Source: Cellulomonas shaoxiangyii
Lineage (GTDB): Bacteria; Actinomycetota; Actinomycetes; Actinomycetales; Cellulomonadaceae
NCBI RefSeq assembly: GCF_004798685.1
Contig: NZ_CP039291.1
Coordinates: forward strand, 3,720,001-3,784,000
DNA length: 64,000 bases
Reading direction: 5' to 3'
In this document: positions 8,754 to 60,881 of the stretch, piece after piece
Layout: every line of letters starts with the position of its first letter
Numbering within the stretch: position 1 is the stretch's first letter
The notes under the pieces: model-generated
Seen by the model: the letters and a program-made list of their open reading frames with translations, nothing else
Database searches by the model: none
Told to the model about the DNA's origin: nothing
Made by a program: the position numbers and the translations under genes

Positions 8754-8759
8754 GGCTTC

Positions 8760-10240: not shown

Positions 10241-10305
10241 CCGGCGAGCATGGCAGCGCCCACCGACACCGGGAGCACGCGACGCACGTCCCGAGCGCTC
10301 CCCGC

Positions 10306-25113: not shown

Positions 25114-25200
25114 CGGGCCCCCTCGGACGCGCCCAGGCTAGTCACCTCCGCGTCCGTGCGCGCGGGCCGTCCCCAGCCCCGGCGCCGTGCCGGGTGCGCG

Positions 25201-25210
25201 GTGTCGACAC
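25201..25210. promoter_or_regulatory. Palindrome GTGTCGACAC before the phosphopantetheinyl transferase gene
   Basis: This is a perfect 10-bp palindrome located 30 bases before the ATG at 25241, in the divergent gap between the methyltransferase and the PPTase. It may be an operator at the left edge of the biosynthetic island. Confidence 0.35.
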
Positions 25211-25240
25211 GGGACCCGCGCCGCCGGGAAGGTGGTCCCC

Positions 25241-29007: not shown

Positions 29008-29047
29008 CCACGGCCGGGCGGGGGCGTCGCCACCCGCCCGGCCGTGG
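29008..29047. terminator. Bidirectional terminator between the M16 pair and precursor 1
   Basis: A perfect 15-bp stem (CCACGGCCGGGCGGG with its complement) encloses a 10-base loop. It lies 6 bases after the precursor 1 stop on the minus strand and 100 bases after the M16 stop on the plus strand. Confidence 0.85.
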
Positions 29048-29052
29048 GGGGA

Positions 29053-29322
29053 TCAGCCGGCCAGGTAGTCCTGACGTGCGGCGATGAGCTCGCCGACGCC
29101 CATCTCACCGAAGCCGACGGAGGCCGTGGCGGCCTCCGCCTCGCTGTAGCCGAACACCATGTCCATCACCGCGTAGCCGGCCAGGACTCCCTGGAAGCCC
29201 GCCCAGGCGAGCGCCGGCGTGGCCAGCGTCGGGACGGTGCTCCTGGGCATCTCGAGCGGACGGACGACGTCGCCCTCGGTACCGCGGACGAGCCGGGTGG
29301 CGGCAGCCTCGATCGCGTTCAT
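29053..29322 (-). CDS. Precursor-like peptide 1 of a putative RiPP/bacteriocin system
   Basis: This 89-residue peptide begins MNAIEAAATRLVRGTEGDVV and ends GVGELIAARQDYLAG. It aligns without gaps over residues 1-41 with the peptide at 40696. Identical residues include MN-x-IE-x-AA-x-RLV, V19, PLE (22-24), P31, L33, A37 and AWA (39-41). The region after AWA is hydrophobic and has a GxxxG (GVLAG, 45-49), then an acidic tail. There are no Cys residues. GAGGAG lies 6 bases before the ATG, a dedicated promoter is at 29357-29390 and a terminator follows. I know no family for it. It looks like leader plus core, with the M16 pair next door; a structural protein or regulator cannot be excluded. Confidence 0.75.
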   Translation of the reverse strand: MNAIEAAATRLVRGTEGDVVRPLEMPRSTVPTLATPALAWAGFQGVLAGYAVMDMVFGYSEAEAATASVGFGEMGVGELIAARQDYLAG

Positions 29323-29356
29323 GCGTACTCCTCGTGGGTGGTGGGATGTGCACCGC

Positions 29357-29390
29357 CGACGCTAGGCAACGCGTCCCACGCCGACATCAA
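29357..29390 (-). promoter_or_regulatory. Promoter of precursor 1 (shared element, copy 1)
   Basis: Read on the minus strand: TTGATG, a 20-base spacer containing GGGACGCG, then TAGCGT followed by CG. The same order and the same 20-base spacing occur before the second peptide gene at 41019-41052. The -35 hexamer overlaps the last codon of the upstream winged-helix gene. Confidence 0.7.
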
Positions 29391-29722
29391 CCGTTCTGCG
29401 GAGATCGTCGGCGGGCGCCCCACCGGCTGCCGAGGCGCGCCATGGTCGCCCAGTAGTCGTCCACGACGTAGGAGCCGAGCTCCGAGAGCTCGACCCACGT
29501 GCGCGGCCGGCGGTCGGCGTAGCCCTTCGTGATGGTGACGAGGCCCGCCGCCTCCAGGGTGAGCAGGTGGCTCGAGAGGTTGCCCTTGGACAGGCCGGTG
29601 GCCCGGTGCAGGTACACGAAGTCCGCCGCCTCGCACTCCGCGAGCGCCGACACCACGGCGAGCCGGGCCGGCTCGTGGACGAGCTTGTCGAGCCGGGCGA
29701 GCTCCGCGAAGGGCTCGCTCAT
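29387..29722 (-). CDS. Winged-helix regulator (HTH_34 type)
   Basis: This is a 111-residue DNA-binding protein. LDKLVHEPARLAVVSALAEC, then FVYLHRATGLSKGNLSSHLL, then LEAAGLVTITKGYADRRPRT is the HTH_34 pattern, a MarR-like dimer without a ligand domain. It is coupled by an ATGA overlap to the upstream membrane protein. It sits directly before the precursor 1 promoter, so control of the peptide genes is plausible. Confidence 0.85.
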   Translation of the reverse strand: MSEPFAELARLDKLVHEPARLAVVSALAECEAADFVYLHRATGLSKGNLSSHLLTLEAAGLVTITKGYADRRPRTWVELSELGSYVVDDYWATMARLGSRWGARRRSPQNG

Positions 29723-30333
29723 GCCCCGGCCGCCGGGTGCGCGCCGAGCACCCGACGCAGGACGAGGTGGCACCACACGGCGATGACGACCTGCGCGAGC
29801 GCGACCGCCGTGAGGAGGACGGCCATCTGCGACAGCGGGTGCACGTCCGTGCCGGCCCAGCGCCCGAGCGGCAGCGCGGACGCGACGGCGCCCACGACGC
29901 CCGCCGTGATGAGCGGCGGCGCGAGCGGCCCGGCCCGCAGGCCCGCGACGACGACCACGGCGGAGACCACGAGCCCCTCCGGGCTGGCGTCCGTGCGCAG
30001 GTCGAGCAGGTGCACGACGAGCACGCCCGCGAGCGCGACGAACGAGACGAGCGCGTACCGCGACCCGACGCCGGCGTGCGGGCGCACCGACCCGTACCGC
30101 TCCCGGTACCGCCGGGCGGCGAGGGTTGCGAGGGCTGTGGCGAGGACGCCGAGGGCGACGACGCCGAACCGCCAGCCCGCGCCCTCGAGCACCGCGCCCG
30201 ACGGCGTGGCGGCGAACATGAGCAGCGCGATCACGAGCATGCCGGGCGCGACGACCAGGCCCTGCAGCATCTCGTAGTGGGCGCTGACGAACCGCACGTC
30301 CTCGATGCGCTCGGCGGACACGTTCGACGTCAT
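29719..30333 (-). CDS. Membrane protein of unknown function
   Basis: This is a 204-residue protein with about five or six hydrophobic segments (LQGLVVAPGMLVIALLMFAA; WRFGVVALGVLATALATLAA; YALVSFVALAGVLVVHLLDL; GLVVSAVVVVAGLRAGPLAP; LLTAVALAQVVIAVWCHLVL) and a short charged N-terminus. I do not recognise the family. Membrane proteins paired with HTH_34 regulators are frequent in actinobacteria, the membrane partner often acting as signal receptor. It could also be an immunity protein for the neighbouring peptides. GGGAGCC precedes the ATG. Confidence 0.7.
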   Translation of the reverse strand: MTSNVSAERIEDVRFVSAHYEMLQGLVVAPGMLVIALLMFAATPSGAVLEGAGWRFGVVALGVLATALATLAARRYRERYGSVRPHAGVGSRYALVSFVALAGVLVVHLLDLRTDASPEGLVVSAVVVVAGLRAGPLAPPLITAGVVGAVASALPLGRWAGTDVHPLSQMAVLLTAVALAQVVIAVWCHLVLRRVLGAHPAAGA

Positions 30334-30372
30334 GGTGGCTCCCTCTGCTCGGCGTACCTCCAGCCTGCGCCG

Positions 30373-30384
30373 CGGACCGGTCCG
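30373..30384. promoter_or_regulatory. Palindrome CGGACCGGTCCG in a divergent promoter region
   Basis: This is a perfect 12-bp palindrome, 40 bases before the membrane-protein start, in the 225-base gap (30334-30558) between that operon and the O-methyltransferase. The rest of the gap is repetitive GC-rich sequence (several GACACGG and CGGACCG words) without a clear promoter. Confidence 0.4.
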
Positions 30385-30558
30385 TGCGGCAGACCCCTCG
30401 GTGCGGCCGACCGGGCATGGCCGGACGGGCAGGCTGCCGCGGACCGTCCGCACCTTCCGCACGCTCGCCGGCCTGCGGACGCTGGAGGTCCGCCCGCCGC
30501 CGGGCCGGCCGCGGCGACGCGCCGTGCGGCCGACACGGCCGACACGACAGGAGCACCG

Positions 30559-31674
30559 ATGACCGCCACGTCGACCGTCACGCCCGCGCGGCGGGCCGTC
30601 CCGCCCCCGCTCGCCCCGCCGCCGCCGCTCACGCCGGACGACGAGCGGCGCGCCGGCGAGCTCATCAACTTCATGAGCGTGCTGCCGCAGGCGGCGCTGC
30701 GGGCGGTCGCGACGCTGCGGGTCGCCGACCTGGTCGCCGCGGGCGTCGACGAGGTCGGCGCGCTCGCGGCGCACGCGGGGGTGCAGCCGGACCGACTGCT
30801 GCGGGTGCTGCGCTACCTGGCCGTGCGCGGGTTCGTCGTCGAGGCCGCGCCCGGCCGGTTCGCGCTGACCGACCTCGGGCAGCTGCTGCGCGACGACCAC
30901 CCGCTGGGCCTGCGGGCGCACTTCGACCTGCACGGCGTCACGCACCGCATGGAGCAGGCGTACGAGGGCCTGCTGGGCACGCTGTGCACGGGCGAGCCGG
31001 CGTACCGCGGCACCCACGGGCGCGACCTGTACGACGACGTCGAGGACGAGCCCGGGCGGACCGCGGCCTTCACGGCGCAGATGTCCTCCCGCGCGCAGCC
31101 GTCGGCGCGAGGGCTCGCTGCGCTGCCGGGCTGGGCGGACGGGCAGGACGTCGTCGACGTCGGCGGTGGCGACGGCGCCCACCTCGCCGAGCTGCTCACC
31201 GCGCACCCGCACCTGCGCGGCACGGTGGTCGACCTGCCCGCCACGTGCCGGCAGGCCGTGCGGCGGTTCGCGGCGCTGGGGCTCGGGGAGCGCGCGCGCA
31301 CCGCCGCGGGCAGCTTCTTCGACCCGCTCCCCGCGGGGGCGGACGCGTACCTGCTGTGCAGCATCCTCATCGACTGGCCCGACGAGGACGCCGTGCGCGT
31401 GCTGACGCGCTGCGCCGAGGCGTGCCGGCCCGGCGGTGCCGTGCTCGTCGTCGACTGGCTCCGGGCCGAGGGTGCGAACCCCGTCGTCACCACGCACGTC
31501 GACCTGCACGAGATGGTGCTGGTCGGCGGGCGCGTGCGCACGCCGACCGAGGTCGCGGCGCTCGCCGCGCGCGCCGGCCTGCGGCACGTCGCCACGGCGC
31601 CGTGCGGGGCGGGGACCACGCTCCTCACGCTCGTCCCGGTGACCGACGGCGCGGCGGGCGACCCCCCGCGCTGA
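30559..31674 (+). CDS. O-methyltransferase (Methyltransf_2 type)
   Basis: This is a 371-residue protein with an N-terminal dimerisation winged helix (INFMSVLPQAALRAVATLRV, then VQPDRLLRVLRYLAVRGFVV) and a SAM domain (VVDVGGGDGAHLAELLTAHP; SILIDWPDEDAVRVLTRCAE; ACRPGGAVLVVDWLR). This is the family that methylates phenolic hydroxyls in polyketide and peptide natural products, and also N-acetylserotonin and related substrates. The ATG has AGGAG 5 bases upstream. It is flanked by a divergent regulatory operon and a terminator. It is the likely tailoring methyltransferase of the island; which of the two systems it serves is not clear. Confidence 0.88.
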   Translation: MTATSTVTPARRAVPPPLAPPPPLTPDDERRAGELINFMSVLPQAALRAVATLRVADLVAAGVDEVGALAAHAGVQPDRLLRVLRYLAVRGFVVEAAPGRFALTDLGQLLRDDHPLGLRAHFDLHGVTHRMEQAYEGLLGTLCTGEPAYRGTHGRDLYDDVEDEPGRTAAFTAQMSSRAQPSARGLAALPGWADGQDVVDVGGGDGAHLAELLTAHPHLRGTVVDLPATCRQAVRRFAALGLGERARTAAGSFFDPLPAGADAYLLCSILIDWPDEDAVRVLTRCAEACRPGGAVLVVDWLRAEGANPVVTTHVDLHEMVLVGGRVRTPTEVAALAARAGLRHVATAPCGAGTTLLTLVPVTDGAAGDPPR

Positions 31675-31692
31675 GCCGGTCCGCGCACGCCG

Positions 31693-31724
31693 CTGCGCCC
31701 CGGGTGGTGGGACCCGGGGCGCAG
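31693..31724. terminator. Bidirectional terminator after the O-methyltransferase
   Basis: A 13-bp perfect stem (CTGCGCCCCGGGT with its complement) closes a 6-base loop GGTGGG in the 75-base gap between converging genes. Confidence 0.8.
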
Positions 31725-31749
31725 GTGCGTCAGGACCGGCGCGGCCGCC

Positions 31750-33435
31750 TCAGCCGCGCGCGCGGGCCCACGGCGTCGCCACGCCGGGTGCGGTCGGCGC
31801 GTCGGGGGGACCGGTCGGCGCGGGCTCGACGGCGTGGCTGCGCGCCCCCGCGGCGTCGGGCCCGGACAGCGCCGCAGCGGGCCACGGCACCGGCTCGGGA
31901 CCCGCCGGGCACGTCACGTCCGCCCCCGGGCCGGATGCGTCGGCGGGCAGGGCGCCGTCGACGAGGTAGCGGACCACCACGGGGTCGACGCACGCGTCCC
32001 CGCGCACCAGGGAGACGCTGTGCTCGCGCCCGCCGTCGGACAGCACGAGCCGCGACGCCGGGAACGCGGCGTGCATCGCGAGCCCGCCGGACAGCCGCAT
32101 GCCGGCGTCGTGGGTCGCGTGCACGACGAGCGCGGGCACCCGCCCGCCGTGCACCGCCACCGGGCGCGCCTTCACGGGCCACGCGACGCAGGGGGCGACG
32201 TACCAGACGTTGTTCCACGTCGCGAAGGGCGCCTGCGCGTGCGTCGCGGCCGCGTCCCGCCGCCAGCGGCGCCAGTCCCGGCTCCACCGGGCGTCGGTGC
32301 ACTGCGCGGCGGTGTACGCCGCGTAGCTCGTGTCGTCCGGGTGGGCGCCGAAGTCCTGGTGCACGAGGCGCAGGAGCGTGGTGTCGCCGTGCACCGCGGC
32401 GTCCGCGAGCACCTGCCCGAGGATCGGCCAGAACGCCGTCTCCCAGCCGAGGTTGAGGAAGGTCGCCTCGAGCTCCCACGGCCCGACGACGCCGTCGACC
32501 GGCGCCTGCGCCGTCCGCGCGCGCAGCGCGTGGTACGCCGCGGCGACCTCGCCCTCCGTGCCGCCGAGGCCGTACGTCCCGTCGTGGCGCGCCGCCCACG
32601 CGAAGAACTCGTGCGCGCGGACGTCGAAGTCGCGGCTCTGGTCGAGGTAGTGCTGGTACAGGTCCCCGTCGGGCCGCAGGCTCGAGTCGAGCACGAGGCG
32701 GCCGACGGTGCGGGGGTGCAGCGTCGCGTACAGGGCGGCGACGTAGGCCCCGTACCCGTAGCCGGCGAGGTGCAGGGTGCGCTCGCCGAGCGCGCGGCGC
32801 ACGACCTCGAGGTCCCGCGCCGCGTCCGCGGACGACAGGTGCGCCAGCAGGTCCCCGTGGGCGGCCGCGCACTCGCGGGCGTACCCGGCCGCGCCGGCCA
32901 GCATCGCGGCCTCCTGCGCAGGCCCCGCCGGGACGGGGTCGGGCTGCACCGGCGCCAGCTGGGCCGGGTCGCACGACAGCCTCGGCATGCTGCCGCCGAC
33001 GCCGCGCGGGTCGACGCCGACGACGTCGTAGCGGGCCAGCACGTCGGGGGCGAGGCGCGCCGCGAGCATGCCCGCCGTCGACCGCCCGGGGATGCCCGGG
33101 CCGCCGGGCTGGACGACGAGCGAGCCGAGCCGCTGCCCCGCCGGCCCGTCGGCGGGCCGCCGCGCCACCGCGAGGGTCAGCCGCCGGCCGTGCGGGCGCC
33201 GGTGGTCGCGGGGCACCGCGACGTCCGCGCACTGCAGGCCGAGCGCGGCGAGGTCCGGCTCCACGCAGGCGCGCCACGCCACCGGCGCCGGCGCACCGGT
33301 GGCTGTCGCCGCGTCCGTGCGTGCCGCCGTGCCCGCCACGCCGGGCGGGGCGGTCAGCACCGTGACGACGACCGCGACGACGAGCGCCGCCACGGCGGAC
33401 CGGGGCGCCCGGCCGCCGCGGCGGGGCCGCGTCAC
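31750..33435 (-). CDS. Secreted TAP-type alpha/beta hydrolase lacking the nucleophile serine
   Basis: This is a 561-residue protein with a basic-then-hydrophobic signal peptide (RSAVAALVVAVVVTVL). The domain order matches tripeptidyl-aminopeptidase-like hydrolases: SLVVQPGGPGIPG oxyanion loop, DVVGVDPRGVGGS, nucleophile elbow, a large lid, then VHATHDAGMRL with the Asp, GREHSVSL with the His, and the TAP_C tail. The elbow reads LHLAGYGYGAYVAALYA: the usual GxSxG serine is Gly227 (codon GGG at 32757-32755). Asp and His remain. It is last in the peptide operon, coupled by GTGA to the halogenase. It may be a binding, immunity or chaperone protein rather than a peptidase. Confidence 0.88.
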   Translation of the reverse strand: MTRPRRGGRAPRSAVAALVVAVVVTVLTAPPGVAGTAARTDAATATGAPAPVAWRACVEPDLAALGLQCADVAVPRDHRRPHGRRLTLAVARRPADGPAGQRLGSLVVQPGGPGIPGRSTAGMLAARLAPDVLARYDVVGVDPRGVGGSMPRLSCDPAQLAPVQPDPVPAGPAQEAAMLAGAAGYARECAAAHGDLLAHLSSADAARDLEVVRRALGERTLHLAGYGYGAYVAALYATLHPRTVGRLVLDSSLRPDGDLYQHYLDQSRDFDVRAHEFFAWAARHDGTYGLGGTEGEVAAAYHALRARTAQAPVDGVVGPWELEATFLNLGWETAFWPILGQVLADAAVHGDTTLLRLVHQDFGAHPDDTSYAAYTAAQCTDARWSRDWRRWRRDAAATHAQAPFATWNNVWYVAPCVAWPVKARPVAVHGGRVPALVVHATHDAGMRLSGGLAMHAAFPASRLVLSDGGREHSVSLVRGDACVDPVVVRYLVDGALPADASGPGADVTCPAGPEPVPWPAAALSGPDAAGARSHAVEPAPTGPPDAPTAPGVATPWARARG

Positions 33436-34760
33436 AGCTCCCCCACGAGCACGGGGTCGGCCGGGTCGACGGTGCCCGCGCGCACGTCGGCGGCCTCCGC
33501 GGCGGCCGGGTCGTCGACGCCCGGGATCTCGTACAGCGCGGACAGCGCGAGCGTGCCCGCGACCACCGCCACGAAGGCGTGCCGGGCCTCCGGGTACCGC
33601 TCGTGGAAGTCCGCCATCGCGCGTGCCTGCGCGAAGTAGTCCTCGCGGTCGCGGTCGGGGTCGTAGAAGAAGCGCACGTAGGACAGGAAGCTCGAGATCA
33701 TCCGCCGGTACCCGGCGTCGTACGCGGCGACCGCCTGCGCCTCCAGGTCGGGCCGGCGCAGCGCCACGTCGACGGCCGCGGCCGCCGGGTCGGCCCCGAG
33801 GACCGCGAGGCACACGCCGCCCGAGAACAGGGGGTCGATGAACGCGCCGGCGTCGCCCGCGGCCAGCCAGCCCGGACCGGCGAACCGCTCCGAGCAGTAC
33901 GACCAGTCGCGCGTCGTGCGGTACCCGGACACGCACTCCGCGCCCTCGAGGAGGTGCCGCAGCTCGCGCGTGCGCGCACGACGCGAGTCGAACAGCTCCT
34001 GCAGCCCCAGGCCCGTCTCCTGCAGGGTCGACGTCGGGGTCACGAACCCGACGCTCAGGCGGCTCGTGCGGTCGTCCACCGGGATCGCCCAGAACCACCC
34101 GTCGTCCACCCGCTCGACGAGGATGTTGCCCCGCTGGCCCTCGGGCAGCGGGCGGGTGCCCTCGAAGTAGGTCCAGTACGCGACGTTGCGCAGGTCCTCC
34201 TGCCACTGCACCTGGGTGAGGCGGCGCGTGAGGACCCGGGCCTGGCCGGACGCGTCGACGGTCAGGCGCGCCCGCAGGTCCTGCTCCACCCCGTCGACCG
34301 ACGCCCGCACGCCCGTGACACGCCCGTCCTCGACCAGCGGTGCGCTCACGGTCGCCCGCTCGAGCACCCGCACGCCGAGCTCGCGGGCACGGTCCAGCAG
34401 CAGCGCGTCGAACTCGTCGCGCCGCACGTGGTAGCTCGACGGGTACGGGCCGCCCGCCTCGGCGAAGTCGACGTTCCACAGGTCGCGGTCGGCTCCCCAC
34501 ACGAGGCTCAGCCCGTTCTTGCGCGGGAAGCCGGCGGCGGCGACGCGGTCGAGCACACCCAGCCGGTCGAGCACGCCGAGCATCCCCGTGATGAGGGACT
34601 CACCGATGTGGTAGCGCGGGAACGTCTCGCGCTCGAGGAGCGTGACGGCGTGACCGCGCTGCGCGAGCAGGCCGGCCGTCGCGGAGCCGGCGGGACCGCC
34701 GCCGACCACGAGCACGTCGGTCGGCGCGGGCGTCCCGCCCGGGGTCGTGGGCACGGTCAT
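33432..34760 (-). CDS. FADH2-dependent halogenase-like flavoprotein
   Basis: This is a 442-residue flavoprotein. The FAD-binding GGGPAG is at 20-25, FPRYHIGESL at 48-57 is typical of tryptophan-halogenase-superfamily enzymes acting on carrier- or peptide-bound substrates (CndH/PltA type), Lys81 sits in GFPRKNGLSLVWG, and the halogenase hallmark WxWxIP appears as WFWAIP at 222-227. GWLAAGDAGAFIDPLFSGGV closes the FAD site. Either halogenation or a monooxygenation is possible, since some CndH-like relatives are not halogenases. It is coupled on both sides (ATGA upstream, GTGA downstream) in the peptide operon. No flavin reductase is seen nearby. Confidence 0.87.
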   Translation of the reverse strand: MTVPTTPGGTPAPTDVLVVGGGPAGSATAGLLAQRGHAVTLLERETFPRYHIGESLITGMLGVLDRLGVLDRVAAAGFPRKNGLSLVWGADRDLWNVDFAEAGGPYPSSYHVRRDEFDALLLDRARELGVRVLERATVSAPLVEDGRVTGVRASVDGVEQDLRARLTVDASGQARVLTRRLTQVQWQEDLRNVAYWTYFEGTRPLPEGQRGNILVERVDDGWFWAIPVDDRTSRLSVGFVTPTSTLQETGLGLQELFDSRRARTRELRHLLEGAECVSGYRTTRDWSYCSERFAGPGWLAAGDAGAFIDPLFSGGVCLAVLGADPAAAAVDVALRRPDLEAQAVAAYDAGYRRMISSFLSYVRFFYDPDRDREDYFAQARAMADFHERYPEARHAFVAVVAGTLALSALYEIPGVDDPAAAEAADVRAGTVDPADPVLVGEL

Positions 34761-35227
34761 GGGGTCCTCCTGGGGTCGGTGCGGGACGGGACGGACGGTG
34801 CGTGGTCCAGGCGGCATGCCACGGTGCCGCCCGGCATGCGGTGGCGGTGCCGGGCGACCACCCGGTACACGCCGGCGGCGAGCCAGCGCACGGGCGGGGC
34901 GCCGAGGACGGCGCCGGCCCCGCGCCACGCGGCGGCCCCCCGGCCGGTCGCCCGGCGCAGCAGACCGGCCGCCGCGAGGGCCCCGCCGGCCGGGCGCGCA
35001 CCCGGGGCGAGCAGGACCATCTCCCGGTCCGTCCGCCCCGGGGCGAGGCCGAACGCGGCGTGGTCGACGACGTACGACGCGACGGGCGTCGCGTCCGGGC
35101 GGACGTGGTCGTCCGCCCACGTGACGGCGCGTGTGCAGAAGCCGCAGTCGGCGTCGTACACGAGCAGGGCGTGCCCGGGCGCGATCGGCGGGCCGACGAG
35201 CGGCCGGGCACCGGTGGTCGGGGTCAC
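34757..35227 (-). CDS. DCC1-like thiol-disulfide oxidoreductase (DUF393)
   Basis: This is a 156-residue thioredoxin-like protein. LLVYDADCGFCTRAV at 21-35 holds the DxDCxxC signature (C28, C31) of the DCC family. The rest (VASYVVDHAAFGLAPGRTDR; LGAPPVRWLAAGVYRVVARH) follows the family pattern. DCC1 proteins often occur beside or fused to HTTM proteins, as here at 39470. The CxxC could form or reduce the disulfide of precursor 2, which has two Cys. GTG 35227 has GAGGAG 5 bases upstream. Confidence 0.88.
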   Translation of the reverse strand: MTPTTGARPLVGPPIAPGHALLVYDADCGFCTRAVTWADDHVRPDATPVASYVVDHAAFGLAPGRTDREMVLLAPGARPAGGALAAAGLLRRATGRGAAAWRGAGAVLGAPPVRWLAAGVYRVVARHRHRMPGGTVACRLDHAPSVPSRTDPRRTP

Positions 35228-35235
35228 GGGTCTCC

Positions 35236-35925
35236 TCACAGCCGACCGACGGCGTCCCGGCCGTCGATCTCGGTCTCGTCGGTCTCCATGTCGAGCAGCC
35301 CGGTCCGGTAGGCGCGTACGACGGCGTCCGTGCGGTTCCGGGCGCCGAGCTTGCGCAGGATGCTCAGCACGTGCGTGCGCACCGTCGCCGGCGCGATGAA
35401 CAGGCGCTCCGCGACCTGCGCGTTCGAGCGGCCCAGCGCCATGTGCCGCAGCACCTCGAGCTCGCGCTCGGTGAGCGGCACCACCGGCCCGGGCACGGTC
35501 GGGCGCGTCGCGAGCCGGGTCACACCGGCCAGGAGCACGGGCGGCACGAACGGGTGCCCGGCGGCCACCGCGCGCACGGCCGTCACGACCTCCTCGCGCG
35601 GTGCGCCCGTGAGCACGAACCCGCGCACGCCGGCTCGGAACAGCTCGACGACCTGCGCGAGCGTGCCCGTCTGCGACGCGGCGACGACCACCACGCCCGC
35701 GCCCGCCTGCTGCGTGAGCCACCGGTGCAGCAGGTCGTGGCCGAGGGCACCGGCCACGGCGTGCAGCACGTGCACCACCGGGCCGGCGCCCACCGGCACG
35801 CAGGGCGTGCCGAAGGGCCGGGTCAGGACGGCGTCGATCCCCTCGGCACCCGTGAGGGCGGCCGTGAGGCGCGCCTGCCACACGTCGTCCTGCGGACCGG
35901 TGCGCAGCAGGACCACGGTCGTCAT
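35236..35925 (-). CDS. LuxR/NarL-type regulator with degenerate receiver domain
   Basis: This is a 229-residue protein. The C-terminal LuxR HTH is clear (PLTERELEVLRHMALGRSNA, then QVAERLFIAPATVRTHVLSI, LRKLGARNRTDAVVRAYRTG). The N-terminal half has the outline of a response-regulator receiver (RAGVRGFVLTGAPREEVVTA, VRAVAAGHPFVPPVLL), but the phospho-acceptor region is altered. The usual acidic pair is missing from TTVVLLRTGPQDDV, and the expected D-V-x-M-P strand reads VVHVLHAVAGALGHD. It is likely phosphorylation-independent. It is inside the peptide operon and the best candidate activator of its promoters. Confidence 0.85.
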   Translation of the reverse strand: MTTVVLLRTGPQDDVWQARLTAALTGAEGIDAVLTRPFGTPCVPVGAGPVVHVLHAVAGALGHDLLHRWLTQQAGAGVVVVAASQTGTLAQVVELFRAGVRGFVLTGAPREEVVTAVRAVAAGHPFVPPVLLAGVTRLATRPTVPGPVVPLTERELEVLRHMALGRSNAQVAERLFIAPATVRTHVLSILRKLGARNRTDAVVRAYRTGLLDMETDETEIDGRDAVGRL

Positions 35926-35947
35926 GCCGGGCCCCGGCCGATCGCGC

Positions 35948-36499
35948 TCACGGCAGCGGGTGCAGGTTCGAGAGGAAGAGCAGCAGCGGTGCGTCGCTCT
36001 CCTCGTGGCCGGTCGACCGGGCGATGAGGAACTGCGTGCGCCGGGCACCGGGCGGGTGCTCGCGCCCGTGCGTCGCGTAGTTCAGCAGCACCAGGTAGGT
36101 GATCGTGACCTGCAGGTCCTCCTTCTTCTGCAGGACCTTCGAGTCGAGCACGCGGATGATCTCGCCGATCGCGTCCATGACGACCTTCTCGGCGCGGCGG
36201 TCCGGGTGCCACAGGATCTGGCTGACGCGACGCTGCTCGGCCGGGAAGCACTCCTTCCACGGCGTGAGCGACCCGTCCGCGAGCTGGTCGCGGTAGAGCA
36301 GGTGCGTGTCGTGCACGCCCGGGTTGGGCGCGAAGAACCGCCACTCCGGCAGGACGATCCCCCAGCCGTCGAGCTTGTCCAGCGCCTTGAGACGACGGGT
36401 CGGCTCCTGCTTGACGACGCTCGCGAGGAACCACGACCCGAGCAGGGTGACGACGGCGCCCAGGCGCACGTCCGCGGCGGACGGTCGCAGCGCGCTCAC
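35948..36499 (-). CDS. Membrane-anchored SdpA/DUF5819-like protein
   Basis: This is a 183-residue protein with one N-terminal hydrophobic segment (VRLGAVVTLLGSWFLASVV, 11-29) and then a soluble part starting WGIVLPEWRFFAPNPGVHD. The W-x-F-F-x-x-x-P block right after a signal anchor is the mark of small proteins that accompany HTTM/SdpB-like membrane enzymes, including SdpA, which is required to mature the Bacillus SDP toxin. The family call rests on this motif, size and neighbours, not on a search. It is coupled to the alpha/beta hydrolase gene (GTGA at 36496-36499). Confidence 0.55.
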   Translation of the reverse strand: MSALRPSAADVRLGAVVTLLGSWFLASVVKQEPTRRLKALDKLDGWGIVLPEWRFFAPNPGVHDTHLLYRDQLADGSLTPWKECFPAEQRRVSQILWHPDRRAEKVVMDAIGEIIRVLDSKVLQKKEDLQVTITYLVLLNYATHGREHPPGARRTQFLIARSTGHEESDAPLLLFLSNLHPLP

Positions 36500-37572
36500 C
36501 GGGCCACCTCCTCGGCCACGCCGACGGCCACGGGTGCCGGCGTCACGGCCGGCCCCTCCGCGCCGGGAGGCTCCGGCGGCGACGCGAGCGGCCGGCCCGT
36601 GCGCACCGCCGCCAGCACGTCGCGCACCGCGCCGACGACCGCGGCGGCGTGCTGCGCGTCGGTCAGCAGGCTGAAGTGGTCCGCGCCCGCGACGACCCGC
36701 ACGTCGTGGTCGTCGGACAGCGCGGCGATCTCGCGCTGCAGGACGAGGTGCACGGGGTCCTCCGTCAACGTCCGCTCGGCGACCAGGACGCACACGGGCA
36801 CGTCGCGCCGCAGCACGGACGTGCGCACCTCGTCGTTGACGAGTCGCGTCCATGCCTCGAACTCGGCGATCGCCGCCGTCCACGTCCGCCGCGCGCGGGA
36901 CGCCGCCACGCCCGACGCGGCACGCTCCGGCGGGAGGCCCGCGAGGTTGAGCCGCTCCGCGGTGGCGGTGCGGCGCAGCAGCCCGACGGCGGCCCGCAGC
37001 TCCGCGTCGCGCAGGTGCTGCTCCACGCCGGTGAGCCCCAGCTGCTGGCGCGGGGAGCGCGTGAGCTGGTCGGGGTGCGACACGTCGGCGAGCACGAGGC
37101 CCGCCACCTCGTCGGGGTGCGCGGAGGCGAAGTGCCGCGCCAGCAGGCCCCCGTAGGAGTGCGCGACCAGCACGTACGGCGGCGCGTGCCCGGCGGCGGC
37201 CAGGGCGGCCCGCAGCTCGGCCACGCTGCTCGCGGCCGTGCGCGGCCGGGGGCTGGGCGACGACCTCCCGAGCCCGGCACGGTCGTAGGCCACCACGGGC
37301 GCGTCCGCGCCCACGGCGTCCTGCACCCACGACCAGATCTCCAGCGGGCACGCCATGCCGTTCTCCAGGACCACGGTGGGGCCCGGCAGCCCCGCACCCC
37401 GCTCCTCGACGTGCAGGCGCACGCCGTCCGCGTCCACGAACCGCCCCGGCGGCGGGTACCGGCGACGGTCCCGCCGTGTGCCGACGGCCTCGGCCGCGGC
37501 CCCGGCGGCGGCGAGCGCGCCCGTCGCGACGGCCACGGCCGCCAGGCCTCCCCAGAACTGCGTCTCCCTCAT
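36496..37572 (-). CDS. Alpha/beta hydrolase, membrane-anchored
   Basis: This is a 358-residue protein with an N-terminal anchor (FWGGLAAVAVATGALAAAGA) and a complete alpha/beta-hydrolase domain: VVLENGMACPLEIWSWVQDA, VVAYDRAGLGRSSP, nucleophile S139 in VLVAHSYGGLLA, and a C-terminal His in VAGADHFSLL. Unlike the TAP-like gene at 31750 it keeps its serine. It is coupled by ATGA to the ABC exporter upstream. It could be an esterase, peptidase or acyltransferase acting outside on the exported product. The substrate is unknown. Confidence 0.87.
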   Translation of the reverse strand: MRETQFWGGLAAVAVATGALAAAGAAAEAVGTRRDRRRYPPPGRFVDADGVRLHVEERGAGLPGPTVVLENGMACPLEIWSWVQDAVGADAPVVAYDRAGLGRSSPSPRPRTAASSVAELRAALAAAGHAPPYVLVAHSYGGLLARHFASAHPDEVAGLVLADVSHPDQLTRSPRQQLGLTGVEQHLRDAELRAAVGLLRRTATAERLNLAGLPPERAASGVAASRARRTWTAAIAEFEAWTRLVNDEVRTSVLRRDVPVCVLVAERTLTEDPVHLVLQREIAALSDDHDVRVVAGADHFSLLTDAQHAAAVVGAVRDVLAAVRTGRPLASPPEPPGAEGPAVTPAPVAVGVAEEVAR

Positions 37573-39473
37573 CGGACCCCCTCCGTGACGGCGTCCTCGC
37601 CGGCCGCGGGGTCGCAGCCGGCGTCGATCAGCTGGTGCCGCACCAGGCGGCGGTACGTGTCGTCCGCGAGCAGCTCCGCATGGGTGCCGCTCGCGCGCAC
37701 CCGCCCGCCGTCCAGCACGTGGATCCGGTCGGCCTCGACGACGGTCGAGAGCCGGTGCGCGACCACGACGACGGCCCGCTCCCGAGCGACCTCGTGCACC
37801 GCGCGGCGCAGTGCCGCCTCGCTGTCGGCGTCGAGGTGCGCCGTGGCCTCGTCGAGCAGCAGCACGTCCGGCCGCAGCAGCAGCATCCGCGCGACCGCGA
37901 CGCGCTGACGCTGCCCGCCGGACAGCGCGGCGCCGCGCTCCCCCACCTCGGTGCGGTCACCCTCCGGCAGCGACCGGACCCAGTCGGTGAGGTCGGCCCG
38001 CGCCAGCGCCTCGGCGATCGCGTCGTCGTCCGCGTCCGGCGCGGCCAGCAGGACGTTCTCCCGGATGGACGCGTCGAGGACGGCAGCGTCCTGCTCGACC
38101 AGCGCGACGCGGCGGCGCAGCGTGCCCAGCGGCAGCTCGCGCACGTCGCGGCCGTCGAGCAGGATGCGCCCGGCGTCGGCCTCCCAGAGCCGCGTCAGCA
38201 GCGCGAGCAGCGTGGACTTGCCCGACCCGGACGCCCCCACGAGGGCGGTGACGCCGCGCGCCGGCACGTCGAGGTCGAGGCCGTCCAGCACCGGCCGGTC
38301 CGGCTCGTAGCCGAACGTCAGCCCCCGCACCCGCAGCACCGCGTCCGCGCCGGCGTCGGCCGGGGGCGCCGGCGGCACCGGCGCGCCGGCGGCCGCCGCC
38401 TCGTCGGGGAGCGCCAGCACGTCCGCGACGCGGGCCGCGGCGGCCATGCCCTGCTGCAGCTGCGCGAGCGCCCCGAACAGCGCCACCAGCGGCGAGATGA
38501 GGTAGAAGAGCAGCAGCAGGAACGACGCGAGGTCCCCGAGCGTGAGCGTCCCGGCCGCCATCCGGACGGCGCCCAGGGTGAACACGAGCGCGAAGGTGGC
38601 CTGCACGCCGCCGTTCGCGACGGGCGTCATGAGCGCCGCCAGGCGCAGCGAGCGCACGCCGCTGCGGTGCGCGGCCTCCGCGTGCCGGCCGATCCGCTCG
38701 GCCTCGCGGTCCTCCGCCCGGCTGAGCTTGAGCGTCGCCACCCCACCGAGCGCGCGCTGCAGGGCAGCGGACAGGTCGCCGACCCGCTCGAGCATGTCCT
38801 GCGTCGCTTCGCGGATGCGCCGCGAGACGAGCAGGGCGGCCCCGGCGGTGAGCGAGATGCACAGCACGAGCACGCCGGTGAGCACGGGGTCGACCGCCAC
38901 CATGAGACCCACGGCGCCGAGCACCGTGACGACGGACAGCACGAGCACCGCGAGCGCCTGCGTGAGGGACGTGCGCAGCGCCGAGGTGTCGGACACCAGC
39001 CGGCTGAGCGTGTCCCCCAGCCGGCGGCGCGCGTGCTCGGCCATGGGGGCGCGCAGCAGCGCGAGGGCCAGTCCGCGGCGCAGGTCGAGGACGACCCGGC
39101 TGCCGGAGACGCCGAGCACGTACGCCTGCACGCCGAGCAGCACGGCCTCGAGCAGGAAGACGCCGACCAGTGTGGCGGCCGTGGCGGTGCGCGCTCCGCC
39201 CTCCTGCACCTCGCCGACCACCCGGCCGATGAGCACCGGCTGGCTGAGCGATGCGGCCGCCGCGAGGACGCCGATCGCGACGGCGCCCAGGAGCGCGCGC
39301 AGGCGCGGCCGCAGCAGCGCCAGCACGAGCGCGCCCGGGCCGGCCTGGGCACCTCCGGGCGGCGCGGGCGGAGGAGTCCCGGGCGCAGGCGGGGCGGGCG
39401 GGGTTCCGGGCGCCCGGGCGGCGCCGGCCGGGACGTCGGCGCGGGCGGCACCCGCGCCGGCCACGGCGGTCAC
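37569..39473 (-). CDS. ABC exporter (fused permease and ATPase)
   Basis: This 634-residue half-transporter has a Pro/Ala-rich N-terminus of about 50 residues, six transmembrane helices of the ABC_membrane type, then an ATPase with Walker A ALVGASGSGKSTLL, Q-loop VALVEQDAAVLD, signature LSGGQRQRVAVARM, Walker B DVLLLDEATAHLD and H-loop VVAHRLSTVV. It has no N-terminal C39 peptidase, so it does not cleave double-Gly leaders itself; the M16 pair could do so. It belongs to the MsbA/LanT-like exporters and lies between HTTM and hydrolase genes with four-base overlaps on both sides, so it is the natural exporter for the peptide system. Confidence 0.92.
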   Translation of the reverse strand: MTAVAGAGAARADVPAGAARAPGTPPAPPAPGTPPPAPPGGAQAGPGALVLALLRPRLRALLGAVAIGVLAAAASLSQPVLIGRVVGEVQEGGARTATAATLVGVFLLEAVLLGVQAYVLGVSGSRVVLDLRRGLALALLRAPMAEHARRRLGDTLSRLVSDTSALRTSLTQALAVLVLSVVTVLGAVGLMVAVDPVLTGVLVLCISLTAGAALLVSRRIREATQDMLERVGDLSAALQRALGGVATLKLSRAEDREAERIGRHAEAAHRSGVRSLRLAALMTPVANGGVQATFALVFTLGAVRMAAGTLTLGDLASFLLLLFYLISPLVALFGALAQLQQGMAAAARVADVLALPDEAAAAGAPVPPAPPADAGADAVLRVRGLTFGYEPDRPVLDGLDLDVPARGVTALVGASGSGKSTLLALLTRLWEADAGRILLDGRDVRELPLGTLRRRVALVEQDAAVLDASIRENVLLAAPDADDDAIAEALARADLTDWVRSLPEGDRTEVGERGAALSGGQRQRVAVARMLLLRPDVLLLDEATAHLDADSEAALRRAVHEVARERAVVVVAHRLSTVVEADRIHVLDGGRVRASGTHAELLADDTYRRLVRHQLIDAGCDPAAGEDAVTEGVR

Positions 39474-40351
39474 CGCTCCCGCAGGCGGCGCAGCGCGCCA
39501 CCCACCCGCAGCGCGAGGTCCCGCGGGTCGTCCGGCGACAGGTGCCGCGCGCACGCGACCACGGCCGGGTACGTGCCGACGAACGCCCAGACGAAGCGGT
39601 TGAGCCCCATGAACGCGGCGTTGCCGAGGTGGAACGACGCCCCGAGGCCGAGCAGCCCCCAGCCCGACGCCTTCGGCGCGACGAGCACGAGCGGCAGGAC
39701 GACCTCGCCGGCGATGACCGCCCAGCCCGCGACGGTCGACAGTGCGCGGCGGTCCTTGAGCAGCTCGTACACGCGGCGGTCGCCGTAGACCTTGGTGCGG
39801 AAGATGCCGGGCATCGCGAGCCCCGTGCGCCAGGACGGACCCGCGGCCTTCGCGAGGCCCGCCGCGAGGTACGACAGCGTCGTCTGCCCCGCGAGGAACC
39901 AGGCGACCGCCTGACGCACGCGCTCGTCGGCGGGCAGCACCCGCGCGACGAACAGCGACGCGTACGTCAGCAGCGTCATGTGGTCCGTGCCGTCGGTGCC
40001 GTACCGGATCCGGTAGTGCAGCGCGTACGTGGTCGCGGACAGGTACCCGACCGCGATCGTGCGGGCCCGCGCCGGGGACGCGGGGTTGAGCAGCACGAGG
40101 GCGGCCAGCAGGCGCAGCGCGAAGATCACGTGGATGCCGGGCGGCTTCGCCAGCACGTTCAGTGCGTCGGCGCGCCGGCGGGACGCCGCCTTCATGCGCG
40201 TGCGCTCCACGTCCCAGCTGAGCAGCCCTTTGTCGCCCAGCTGGCCGGGACGCGCGAGATATTCCAGCGCGGTCAGCGCGATTCCCACGGAGGTGATCGT
40301 CTCGACCTGTTTCAGCGCACGCTCGAAAGGCGCGACGGAATTGGCTGCCAT
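39470..40351 (-). CDS. HTTM-like membrane protein (SdpB / vitamin-K carboxylase-related)
   Basis: This 293-residue protein has about six or seven hydrophobic helices. RYGTDGTDHMTLLTYASLFV, LAGQTTLSYLAAGLAKAAGP, SWRTGLAMPGIFRTKVYG and GWAVIAGEVVLPLVLVAPKA follow the HTTM (horizontally transferred transmembrane) pattern shared with SdpB and gamma-glutamyl carboxylases, though the family call is by pattern only. The related DCC1 and SdpA-like genes are in the same operon. It is first gene of the coupled operon 40351-31750. Codon usage at its N-terminus is less GC-rich than elsewhere (ATATT, ATTCC), hinting at transfer. It probably takes part in peptide maturation in the membrane. Confidence 0.72.
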   Translation of the reverse strand: MAANSVAPFERALKQVETITSVGIALTALEYLARPGQLGDKGLLSWDVERTRMKAASRRRADALNVLAKPPGIHVIFALRLLAALVLLNPASPARARTIAVGYLSATTYALHYRIRYGTDGTDHMTLLTYASLFVARVLPADERVRQAVAWFLAGQTTLSYLAAGLAKAAGPSWRTGLAMPGIFRTKVYGDRRVYELLKDRRALSTVAGWAVIAGEVVLPLVLVAPKASGWGLLGLGASFHLGNAAFMGLNRFVWAFVGTYPAVVACARHLSPDDPRDLALRVGGALRRLRER

Positions 40352-40395
40352 GAGCCCCCCGCTCGTCGTGACGCCGGCGGTCACCGGCGGCCGCG

Positions 40396-40427
40396 ACCAT
40401 CGTGCGCGTTCCCGGGAATTACCACCA
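40396..40427 (-). promoter_or_regulatory. Candidate promoter of the HTTM operon (degenerate copy of the shared element)
   Basis: Read on the minus strand: TGGTGG, 20 bases containing GGGAACGCGC, then GATGGTCG. Spacing and the central GGGA-ACGCG block match the two precursor promoters, but the hexamers are weaker. It lies 45 bases before the HTTM ATG. Confidence 0.45.
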
Positions 40428-40444
40428 ATGCCCCTGCGGCGGCT

Positions 40445-40477
40445 TGCCCGGCTACGGCCGCCGTAGCCGATCGGGCA
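40445..40477. promoter_or_regulatory. Compound palindrome upstream of the HTTM operon
   Basis: TGCCCG and CGGGCA form outer arms around GGCTACGG-CCG-CCGTAGCC. The inner arms are perfect. It sits just upstream of the predicted -35 box of the HTTM operon and could be an activator site or a weak terminator. It is one of three structures in the 344-base non-coding stretch 40352-40695. Confidence 0.5.
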
Positions 40478-40612
40478 GGGGGCCGCGCACCGCCCGACCT
40501 CGGTACCCCGACGCACGGCCGGGACCCGTGGTGCGAGGGCCCGCACGCCGGCGCCGGCGCGCACGCCCGGTGCCACGCGGGGCCGGCGCGCGGCGCTCCC
40601 GACCGGACGCAG

Positions 40613-40657
40613 CACGACGTGGGCCGCACGGGACGTTCCCGTGCGACCCACGTCGTG
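40613..40657 (-). terminator. Terminator of precursor 2
   Basis: CACGACGTGGG and CGCACGGGA pair with their complements around the loop CGT, with one C/A mismatch between the two segments: 20 base pairs in all. It lies 39 bases after the precursor 2 stop and 220 bases before the next operon's promoter, so the peptide gene is monocistronic. Sequence between it and the palindrome at 40445 shows nothing recognisable. Confidence 0.85.
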
Positions 40658-40695
40658 GTAGGTCAGAGGCGCCGTACGGACCGACGGCGATCCGG

Positions 40696-40968
40696 TCAGC
40701 CGCGCAGCAGCTCCGCGCGGCCGTGCAGCAGCTCGTCGGCCGACAGGTCGGCACCGTTGTCCTCGACCATGGTGACGAAGGCCGCCTCCACCGACGTGCA
40801 GCCGTTCTTGTAGCAGTGGTACGCGGCGCCGGCCGCCATCCCCGCCGCCCACGCGACGGCCACGGGGGTCAGCACGGGAGCGGCCACGGCCACCGGCTCG
40901 AGCGGCGCGATCACCGCCTCGCCCTCCGCCGGGACGAGACGCTGCGCGGCATTCTCGATGCTGTTCAT
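40696..40968 (-). CDS. Precursor-like peptide 2 of a putative RiPP/bacteriocin system
   Basis: This 90-residue peptide begins MNSIENAAQRLVPAEGEAVI and ends ADELLHGRAELLRG. Its first 41 residues align gaplessly with the peptide at 29053, and the last 13 share E, L, R, L and G. A hydrophobic stretch with GxxxG (GMAAG, 43-47) leads to YHCYKNGC, giving Cys52 and Cys57 in a CxxxxC arrangement, then an acidic segment. GGAGG lies 7 bases before the ATG at 40968. The operon that follows encodes an exporter and a thiol-disulfide protein, fitting a disulfide-containing secreted peptide. No known precursor family is recognised. The open frame extends 37 codons upstream, but without similarity to peptide 1. 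Confidence 0.78.
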   Translation of the reverse strand: MNSIENAAQRLVPAEGEAVIAPLEPVAVAAPVLTPVAVAWAAGMAAGAAYHCYKNGCTSVEAAFVTMVEDNGADLSADELLHGRAELLRG

Positions 40969-41018: not shown

Positions 41019-41052
41019 CGACGCTACGAGCGCGTCCCGACCGCGGCATCCA
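41019..41052 (-). promoter_or_regulatory. Promoter of precursor 2 (shared element, copy 2)
   Basis: Read on the minus strand: TGGATG, a 20-base spacer containing GGGACGCG, then TAGCGTCG. Compared with the copy at 29357-29390, GGGACGCG and TAGCGTCG are identical and the -35 differs by one base. It lies inside the last codons of the adenylation-domain gene (stop at 41024). Confidence 0.72.
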
Positions 41053-42547
41053 CCATTGTGCTGGAACACGCGCGCGCATTTGCGAGCGCCTGCACGTCTA
41101 CCTTTCCGTGGTCCGTGACGGGCAGCCGGTCGTGCCGCACGACCCGGTCCGGGACGAGGTGGCGCGGCACCGCGGCGGCCAGGTGACGGACCACGTCGCC
41201 GGGCGCCAGCGCGGCGCCGGGCACGGTCGCGTAGTCGGCGGCGAGCAGGGCCGTGCCGTCGGGCGCCGCGACCACGTGCACGACGGCCTGCAGCACGTCG
41301 GGGTGCGCCCGCAGCACGGCCTCCGGCTCGCCCAGCTCGACCCGGAACCCACGCAGCTGCACCTGGCGGTCGCGGCGGCCGAGCACGTGCAGCTCGCCGT
41401 CCGCGTCGAGCAGGCCCCAGTCGCCGCTGCGGTAGGCGCGGCCGCGCGGACCGTCGACGAACCGCTCGCGGTCCAGCTCGGGGCGGTCGAGGTAGCCGTG
41501 CGCCACCGACGCGCCCGCGACGAGCAGCTCGCCCGGGGTGCCGGGTGGCACGGGCGTCAGGTGCTCGTCGACGACCGTGACGTCGAGGTGGTCCAGCGGC
41601 CGGCCGGCCGGCGTGGCGCCCGGCACGACGGCCCGCTCGCCGCCCGTCAGGTAGCGGTGCGTGACGTGCACCGTGGTCTCGGTGATCCCGTACATGTTCG
41701 ACACCCGCGCCGCGGGAGCGGCACCCAGGCGCCGCCAGCGCGCCACCGCGTCGAGGTCGACGGCCTCCCCGCCGAGCACGACGTGGCGCAGGTCGGGCAG
41801 CGGGCGCGGGGCGTCGACGAGCGCGCCGACCAGGTGCCCGAACACCGTCGGCACGAGGTTGAGGACGCTGACCTGCTCGGCCACGAGCAGGTCAGCCAGC
41901 GCGCCCAGGTCCCGCGTGAGCGCGCGCGGCACGACGACGGCCTGGCCGCCGGACAGGAGCGACCCGAACATCTCCCACACCGAGAAGTCGAAGGACGCGG
42001 AGTGGAAGAGCGTCCAGACGTCGTCCTCGCCGGTGTCGAGCCGCCCGGCGCACGCGTCGAGGAGCGCCAGCACGTGGGCGTGGCCGACGAGGACGCCCTT
42101 CGGCCGGCCCGTCGAGCCCGACGTGTGGATGACGTAGCAGGTGTCGTCCGGCACGCGGTGCGGCGGTCCCGCGTCCGCCGACGCGCACGGGTGCACCCGC
42201 GGACGGCCCGCGGCGTCCGGGACCACCACGACGGCCAGGCGCGCGTCCTGCTCCACGAGCTCGCGGCGCGCCGGCGGGTACGTCGGGTCGACCGGCACGT
42301 AGGCGCACCCGTGGCCGAGCACGCCCAGCAGCGCGGCCACGAGGCCCGCACCCCGGGGCATGCGCACGCCGACGAGCGATCCCGGCGCCACGCCCGCGGC
42401 GGCGAGACCGGCGGTGACGTCGGCCGCGTCGGCCGCGAGCTCGGCGTAGGTGAGCCAGCGCGTCCCGTCGACCAGCGCGACCGCGTCGGGGCGGCGCGCC
42501 ACGACCGCGGCGAACCGTGCGTCGACGCGGTCGGCCGACCCCGTCAC
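41024..42547 (-). CDS. Stand-alone NRPS adenylation enzyme, predicted threonine-specific
   Basis: This 507-residue adenylation domain has no carrier domain. The A3 loop is YVIHTSGSTGRPKGVLVG, A5 NMYGITETTVHVTH, A7 YRSGDWGLLDADGELHVLGR and A10 PVTDHGKVD. Reading the specificity pocket by eye from FDFSVWEMF, VLNLVPTVF, VVLGGEAV and NMYGITETTVHV gives D-F-W-N-V-G-M-V-H, one step from the threonine code D-F-W-N-I-G-M-V-H. It should load threonine in trans on the carrier of the C-PCP-reductase protein encoded just upstream, which lacks its own A domain. It is last in the NRPS operon, with a GTGA overlap. Confidence 0.9.
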   Translation of the reverse strand: MTGSADRVDARFAAVVARRPDAVALVDGTRWLTYAELAADAADVTAGLAAAGVAPGSLVGVRMPRGAGLVAALLGVLGHGCAYVPVDPTYPPARRELVEQDARLAVVVVPDAAGRPRVHPCASADAGPPHRVPDDTCYVIHTSGSTGRPKGVLVGHAHVLALLDACAGRLDTGEDDVWTLFHSASFDFSVWEMFGSLLSGGQAVVVPRALTRDLGALADLLVAEQVSVLNLVPTVFGHLVGALVDAPRPLPDLRHVVLGGEAVDLDAVARWRRLGAAPAARVSNMYGITETTVHVTHRYLTGGERAVVPGATPAGRPLDHLDVTVVDEHLTPVPPGTPGELLVAGASVAHGYLDRPELDRERFVDGPRGRAYRSGDWGLLDADGELHVLGRRDRQVQLRGFRVELGEPEAVLRAHPDVLQAVVHVVAAPDGTALLAADYATVPGAALAPGDVVRHLAAAVPRHLVPDRVVRHDRLPVTDHGKVDVQALANARACSSTMVDAAVGTRS

Positions 42548-60707: not shown

Positions 60708-60881
60708 GACGTCCTCCGCCTCGTGCCGCTCCGCCGCTCGCGGCACAGACGATCACGGGGGGGTGGAGGCGAGGAATGGTCGAGTGGGTGGCCCGCACGG
60801 GTACCGCGGACGCCTGGTCGTCCGGCTACCCCGGCCCTGCCCGGCGGGCGTCCGGCCGGGCGCCGAGCAGCGCGCACGCCA

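Follow-up and report, generated by a model that had tools for sequence, protein, structure and literature searches.

The window analysed here, a 64,000-nucleotide stretch of the Cellulomonas shaoxiangyii genome (contig NZ_CP039291.1, positions 3,720,001 to 3,784,000 of the forward strand), carries genes for two small peptides, A and B, which very probably serve as the precursor pair of a ribosomal peptide system of linaridin type, within a distinct subgroup. As far as the sequence tells, the machinery is of the linaridin type and its precursors are of a new kind. An earlier note on this DNA could match the pair to no known class of ribosomally synthesized and post-translationally modified peptides (RiPPs); this can no longer be maintained, as the LinL, LinG and LinE genes form the linaridin set and a related Cellulomonas LinL adjoins a cypemycin-family precursor. 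The machinery is thus assigned from sequence, and the product is not claimed as a linaridin, since a Thr-rich core is missing and the chemistry proposed for it is a prediction from the genes. A tailed two-precursor subgroup of this kind was not found in the literature searched, a search that did not extend to the main linaridin survey (Georgiou 2020).

One ground for the assignment is the operon of the window, which is flanked by the genes of A and B and holds the trio LinL, LinG and LinE together with an exporter, a LuxR-type regulator, DCC1 and a halogenase-like enzyme. In passages of PMC9927463, linaridin clusters are described by their marker gene, LinL, together with genes for an HTTM protein, an alpha/beta hydrolase and an exporter, and by PxxxTP as the cleavage site. 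When the 181-residue LinL-type protein was compared with plasmid records, a relative was found in 16 of them, 11 being from Streptomyces; among the 12 neighbourhoods inspected (H5, H6, H10 and H14 were left out as near-copies), several show small open reading frames (ORFs) of the APVMATPA type beside an HTTM protein, an alpha/beta hydrolase, the LinL relative, an exporter and other enzymes. A LinL profile, A3, built from 14 LinL relatives, finds LinL in 4 of 81 Cellulomonas genomes, and matches with E 2.4e-26 the LinL of Cellulomonas G452 at locus L109 (7017-10262), a cypemycin-family linaridin locus with precursor, HTTM protein, hydrolase, LinL and flavoprotein. The L109 precursor beside LinL passes the NCBIfam model NF033752, 'cypemycin family RiPP', with 85 bits against a cut-off of 35 (E 2.9e-24), and the CypD-like decarboxylase of the locus scores 159.5 bits where the cut-off is 215. 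Because this LinL adjoins a precursor passing the model, the link between the trio of the window and a linaridin locus has a second footing besides the literature.

Both peptides are encoded by real genes. The two ORFs lie on the minus strand where the earlier note had placed them, and its gap-free alignment of residues 1-41, the GxxxG in both peptides and the CxxxxC in B were all recovered. A gapped global alignment of A and B scores 99, against a mean of -21, a standard deviation of 11 and a best score of 27 in 2000 shuffles (z about 10.5), and the peptides retrieve each other in their own genome at E ~6e-5. In Cellulomonas genome G016 the same pair is found, each member 79% identical and the two spaced 11 kb apart, within a block that corresponds to about 24.5-49 kb of the window, the upper limit being the end of the compared stretch. 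The substitutions between the two species at codon positions 1, 2 and 3 number 15, 10 and 36 in A and 12, 8 and 34 in B, and it is this retained pair with its third-position bias that argues for genuine genes. Direct searches with the peptides gave few matches: in the relatives search, which covered 39 genomes, A at E 0.01 was found only in its own genome and G016; at E 1e-4, of 396 genomes of the order, A and B matched the window's own genome only (G016 not being among the matches); and B matched no plasmid record. Weak matches of B in nine further genomes (E 6e-4 to 1e-2) were dropped; they cover residues 12-54, in one case 24-80, inside frames of 247-586 residues.

The earlier note had proposed a conserved leader followed by a variable core. 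The conserved N-terminus stands, while the middle turned out to vary least of all parts when the two close species are compared: within residues 31-59, limits that were set after inspecting the alignment, 0 of 29 positions of A changed against 19 of 60 outside (p 2e-4), and 1 of 29 positions of B against 18 of 61 (p 0.005), the changes falling mostly in leader and tail. A and B thus have three parts, namely a leader that ends near a P-x-x-(x)-T-P site, a middle of hydrophobic character and a conserved tail at the C-terminus.

To place the window among its relatives, 239 LinL relatives in genome contigs were considered and the best 80 kept, which make up 75 loci (window not counted): 23 of the subgroup, 29 canonical and 23 other. 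The LinL tree comprises the window and 59 of these loci, and the other 16 were placed by similarity and organism. In this tree 25 canonical linaridin rows split from 35 others with support 100/99, the latter comprising 24 actinobacterial rows, the window among them, and 11 further ones from Bacteroidota, Nitrosospira, one Deltaproteobacteria and one Acidobacteriota metagenome-assembled genome, and one Geodermatophilus. By this branching the subgroup is distinct from the canonical linaridins. Neighbouring genes were counted by tblastn with set bit limits: LinG accompanies LinL in 22/23 subgroup, 29/29 canonical and 23/23 other loci (74/75 in all), LinE in 22/23, 28/29 and 0/23, and a LuxR-type regulator in 19/23, 4/29 and 0/23, respectively. 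DCC1, searched by sequence pattern, is absent from the canonical loci (0/29) and found in 18/23 of the other ones; its presence in 30 of the 46 non-canonical loci, set against 0 of the 29 canonical ones, gives p 1.3e-9, not corrected for kinship. With the DCC1 of the window as tblastn query, the subgroup and canonical counts are the same and the other loci give 0/23; Pfam confirms the DCC1 of one of them, L105 (E 9.5e-22).

The tail follows the same division. An iterated profile kept 87 precursor rows: 2 from the window, 33 from the subgroup (18 loci), 41 canonical (19 loci) and 11 from plasmids (6 loci), G016 being entered as two stretches. The pattern S/T-x-x-E-L-L-x-x-R, or a near variant, is present in both window peptides and 33/33 subgroup precursors and absent from canonical (0/41) and plasmid (0/11) ones, a count that is partly circular as the profile was seeded with tailed peptides, the loci being grouped by the LinL tree and not by the tail. 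As background, the pattern occurs in 58 of 8201 ORFs of at most 300 residues in the 75 loci, and 42 of these 58, counted by eye, are either precursors of the subgroup or, in other phyla, ORFs that immediately precede LinL. Among the 23 other loci, 13 have an ORF immediately before LinL that ends in S/P-L-D/E-x-L-x-x-L-R, and in 8 this ORF ends, by eye, in a near variant; L074 has no such tail, and L057, an actinobacterium, is unclear. The precursor-like character of A and B, with conserved N-termini and linked maturation genes, is borne out in homologues of several families.

Moreover, the precursors tend to come in two types. At least two tailed precursors are found in 12 of the 24 subgroup rows and a single one in 8, and in 10 rows, from five families, one precursor stands just upstream of LinG and another downstream of LinL (the window, L033, L035, L039-L043, L048 and L066; the LinL-side precursor is inverted in L042 and L043). 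Labelled P1 and P2 by position, except for L044, L045, L047 and L050, which were labelled by likeness, the 35 precursors require 3 label changes on their tree against 10.7 in shuffles; with those four left out, 27 rows still need 3 changes, shuffles having been made for the full set. In the same tree B of the window clusters with P1 peptides from Streptomyces and Micromonospora (86/88), and A of the window with the Micromonospora P2 (97/89). This recurrence of two paralogous types across families speaks for the two-peptide idea as a possibility. A separate case is Leifsonia sp. ALI-44-B, where two LinL loci, L052 and L066, lie about 14 kb apart on one contig, with two tailed precursors at L066 and none found at L052.

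Outside the actinobacteria, loci such as L055, L061, L088, L093 and L105 (~8500-10800) combine a small precursor-like ORF, LinL, LinG and often DCC1, without LinE. In short runs of this kind in Bacteroidota and Nitrosospira the tail of the precursor-like ORF resembles that of the window.

A number of points weigh against the assignment. Neither A nor B matches the NCBIfam precursor models, the cypemycin-family one included, at E 1; among six precursors of relatives, NF033752 matched the L109 peptide only. The linaridin hexapeptide PxxxTP is present in A as PTLATP, whereas the PVLTP of B is one residue short. No Thr-rich core is seen, as residues 34-59 contain one Thr in A, and two Thr and one Ser in B, and with so few of these residues dehydration is a weak guess. 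Excerpts of PMC9927463 give corynaridin seven Thr and present the Thr-rich core as a feature of described linaridins, not stating it as a condition. The Pfam matches of the window's LinL and HTTM protein fall under the curated cut-offs. As for the subgroup, no precursor was found in 4 of the 24 rows (L037, L038, L049 (masked stretches) and L052), and the 24 actinobacterial rows are not demonstrated as one clade, because the 11 further rows nest among them (86/85). DCC1 occurs in only 12 of the 23 subgroup loci and the catalytic M16 subunit in 6/23, with 0/29 canonical and 0/23 other (weaker matches in L035, L040 and L041). The halogenase occurs in 6/23, 1/29 and 0/23, and the O-methyltransferase in 1/23 (G016), 0/29 and 0/23.

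The monocistronic arrangement with separate promoters given in the earlier note is not borne out by the sequence. A begins 64 nucleotides after a helix-turn-helix (HTH) gene and B 55 nucleotides after the adenylation-domain gene of a non-ribosomal peptide synthetase (NRPS), both on the same strand, and a scan restricted to sigma-70-type promoters, with other types outside its scope, found none. With gaps this short, co-transcription with the upstream genes is possible. Of the terminators proposed, the strong hairpin after each gene is there and the T tract is not.

The AlphaFold model of LinG, made with 50 sequences, has a predicted local distance difference test score (pLDDT) of 93.5. In a Foldseek search its ranks 1-13 are all gamma-glutamyl carboxylase (GGCX), with probability 1.00 and query TM-scores of 0.47-0.60, ten of them at E <= 0.001, while the LinG sequence itself matched nothing in the PDB. 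The model thus predicts for LinG the fold of the vitamin K-dependent carboxylase. For LinL (pLDDT 83.4) the PDB offers nothing convincing, the best match being E 0.072 by sequence and E 0.24 by fold. The mode of action of both proteins is called unclear in the passages of PMC9927463; the title of Xue 2023, as given in the reference list of PMC10406935, attributes the family-determining activity during cypemycin formation to two membrane-associated proteins, and a passage of PMC10373908 reports grmL as a requirement for grisemycin and as a potential epimerase gene. The idea that DCC1 forms a disulfide in the peptide was rejected, as three loci with DCC1 (L105, L061 and L055) have Cys-free ORFs upstream of LinL; B, with its two Cys, could still be an exception.

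A route consistent with these features can be proposed. Leader and tail would attach the precursor to the LinL-LinG pair in the membrane, and LinG would act at C-alpha/C-beta of membrane-held residues, by Thr dehydration and/or L-to-D epimerisation, steps with which these proteins are credited in linaridins. DCC1 may maintain the redox state of LinG rather than a peptide disulfide. LinT would then export the peptides and the M16 pair trim their ends, giving mature peptides of about segment 34-59 of each precursor, and the two might act together against competitors. Paired precursors, a fixed tail, DCC1 and a GGCX-type fold offer a concrete route to ask for the tail's binding partner and the HTTM enzyme's redox partner; should the tail serve in recognition, it would offer a handle at the C-terminus by which peptides are modified in the membrane.

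A bolder reading, conceivable and yet doubtful, is that LinL-LinG is a RiPP module spanning phyla, for which the S-x-x-E-L-L/I-x-x-R-type tail and DCC1 would define a class wider than the linaridins, and which in actinobacteria would be a true two-component system joined to a peptide-decorating line of NRPS and polyketide synthase (PKS). The last part can also be put as an addition to the linaridin-type reading: the assembly line would make an acyl or aminoacyl piece, perhaps halogenated, released by the reductase and joined to one or both peptides. Such a joint product seems rather unlikely. Lipolanthines do have PKS-made acyl chains attached to peptides, and here B begins directly behind the adenylation gene. 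The C-PCP-reductase protein (condensation, peptidyl carrier and reductase domains; C-PCP-R) has matches at E 1e-60 in just 2 of the 81 Cellulomonas genomes, and these are the two with A. Moreover, a similar wider block (adenylation protein, C-PCP-R, acyl-CoA dehydrogenase, NRPS and DrrAB) accompanies the LinL operon of G016, Micromonospora endolithica and Amycolatopsis vastitatis, C-PCP-R lying in the latter two on the same contig as LinL within ~20 kb, and parts of it occur in Streptomyces sp. OfavH-34-F on contig fragments where linkage is not visible. However, among 16 genomes of subgroup loci searched C-PCP-R has a match in 8 and none in the other 8; in Saccharomonospora piscinae it is several hundred kb from LinL, if on the same contig, and Actinopolyspora alba has no match, yet a halogenase-like gene adjoins its DCC1. 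The block was not found in the stretches around two further Cellulomonas LinL loci, L108 and L109. No joining enzyme was identified, and independent neighbouring clusters would look alike. The repeated co-location with the LinL operon is not proof of a joint product, and the link to the peptides, the product chemistry and the activity are put forward as proposals; the linked block does raise the question of a part-ribosomal, part-assembly-line peptide.

It is highly improbable that A and B form an unmodified two-peptide bacteriocin, the enzymes serving the NRPS/PKS product only. Class IIb bacteriocins have a double-glycine leader, a C39 exporter and no modification genes. The paralogous pair, the GxxxG in both and the frequency of rows with at least two tailed precursors would suit this; but precursors of this kind occur with LinL, LinG and LinE in different families, whether or not the NRPS is there, a similar tail goes with LinL in other phyla, and the Pfam scan lists no C39 peptidase domain for the LinT-type exporter, so that the locus falls outside the class IIb definition. 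An SDP-like toxin system, our first idea, with LinG as the SdpB-like HTTM protein and LinL as the SdpA analogue, can scarcely be upheld: in the SdpABC system of Bacillus a precursor, a small partner and an HTTM protein are laid out comparably and the pair acts on the secreted peptide, and LinG weakly matches SdpB (TIGR04033, E 0.0046, 16.6 bits, far under the cut-off of 178.4), but the SdpA model PF17418 has no match in the window's genome, with a positive B. subtilis control, nor any in the 14 LinL relatives at E 0.1, and the idea was dropped on this result and on the linaridin-motif peptides of the plasmid neighbourhoods.

The linaridin-type system of the window can be set beside known ones. 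With cypemycin, grisemycin, legonaridin and corynaridin it shares LinL, LinG, LinE and an ABC exporter, and A has a P-x-x-x-T-P-type precursor site, to which the site of B comes close; it differs in the conserved C-terminal tail, in the two paralogous precursor types around the operon and in the few Thr of the middles, and the subgroup differs in LuxR, often DCC1, sometimes halogenase and M16, and a LinL across the 100/99 branch. Linaridin clusters with several precursors do occur in the excerpts consulted. GGCX has VKOR as its thiol redox partner, a role for which DCC1 would be the candidate in the window; the LinG identity to GGCX is 14-16% and no carboxylation is implied, vitamin K reduction serving as an analogy only. 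The M16 pair recalls the heteromeric PttP1/PttP2 that removes the leader of class III lanthipeptides (passages of PMC10885120), but here it adjoins linaridin-type genes. TMcins also have a hydrophobic precursor processed at the membrane, but the part of their description in PMC13252029 names an S2P-type protease and a DsbA-like enzyme, with neither HTTM nor LinL, and this identity was set aside.

The features are collected in Table 1. The assignments of HTTM, DCC1, halogenase-like enzyme, O-methyltransferase, M16 pair and ABC exporter made in the earlier note hold, the HTTM one under its Pfam cut-off. The halogenase-like enzyme carries WFWAIP, which we take to be typical of flavin-dependent halogenases, and its nearest PDB entries are 8zop 'Halogenase' (E 1e-109), 3e1t and 3i3l (CmlS).

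Table 1. Features in the window (positions of the window; aa, amino acids).
Feature	Position	Strand	Remarks
4'-phosphopantetheinyl transferase	25187..26047	+	PF01648
M16 peptidase subunit with HLVEH	26126..27502	+	PF00675, PF05193
M16 peptidase subunit	27514..28908	+	PF05193 only, without PF00675 match
Hairpin after peptide A	29010..29045	-	-45.6 kcal/mol, z -3.0; coordinates from dot-bracket
Putative precursor peptide A, P2 type, 89 aa	29053..29322	-	leader, PTLATP site at residues 31-36, hydrophobic middle to ~residue 59, tail; VGELIAARQDYLAG
Winged-helix regulator (HTH_34)	29387..29722	-	
Protein without family match	29719..30333	-	hydrophobic stretches by eye
O-methyltransferase	30559..31674	+	PF00891
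TAP-like alpha/beta hydrolase	31750..33432	-	PF08386
Flavin-dependent halogenase-like enzyme	33432..34760	-	PF04820 E 2.5e-34
DCC1-like thiol-disulfide oxidoreductase	34757..35224	-	PF04134 E 1.6e-9
LuxR-type (GerE) regulator	35236..35925	-	PF00196
LinL-type protein, 181 aa	35948..36493, start uncertain	-	P-x-W-x-F-F-A-P-x-P; profile relatives; DUF5819 below cut-off
LinE-type alpha/beta hydrolase	36496..37572	-	PF00561 E 1.5e-15
ABC exporter, LinT-type, permease and ATPase in one chain	37569..39455, start uncertain	-	PF00664, PF00005
LinG-type HTTM membrane protein, 293 aa	39470..40351	-	PF05090 E 1.3e-4, 22.1 bits, below cut-off 27.7; model with predicted GGCX fold
21-bp hairpin after peptide B	40613..40657	-	-58.9 kcal/mol, z -5.5; coordinates from dot-bracket
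Putative precursor peptide B, P1 type, 90 aa	40696..40968	-	leader, PVLTP, middle with CYKNGC, tail; ADELLHGRAELLRG
Free-standing NRPS adenylation protein	41024..42538	-	PF00501
NRPS C-PCP-reductase (C-PCP-R) protein	42544..45483	-	PF00668, PF00550, PF07993
Thioesterase	45480..46217	-	PF00975
Acyl-CoA dehydrogenase	46214..47455, end approximate	-	PF02771, PF02770, PF00441
Candidate open frame	47455..57366, gene limits approximate	-	ketosynthase, acyltransferase, carrier, condensation, adenylation domains
Candidate open frame	55086..60746, limits approximate	-	two adenylation stretches, one condensation, two carriers; overlaps frame 47455..57366
DrrAB-type ABC exporter pair	60925..62801	-	PF01061, PF00005, PF13732

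Over the NRPS/PKS block of the minus strand (47455-60746) there are long overlapping frames on both strands. Elsewhere, LinL relatives also adjoin genes of other RiPP classes: on the Streptomyces plasmids of L023 and L030 a lantibiotic dehydratase and LanC-type genes with small Cys-containing peptides, and on a plasmid of the archaeon Haloplanus (L032) a LinL relative and a hypothetical protein lie near genes for YcaO, a SagB-type protein and a leader-binding protein of thiazole/oxazole-modified microcins (TOMM).

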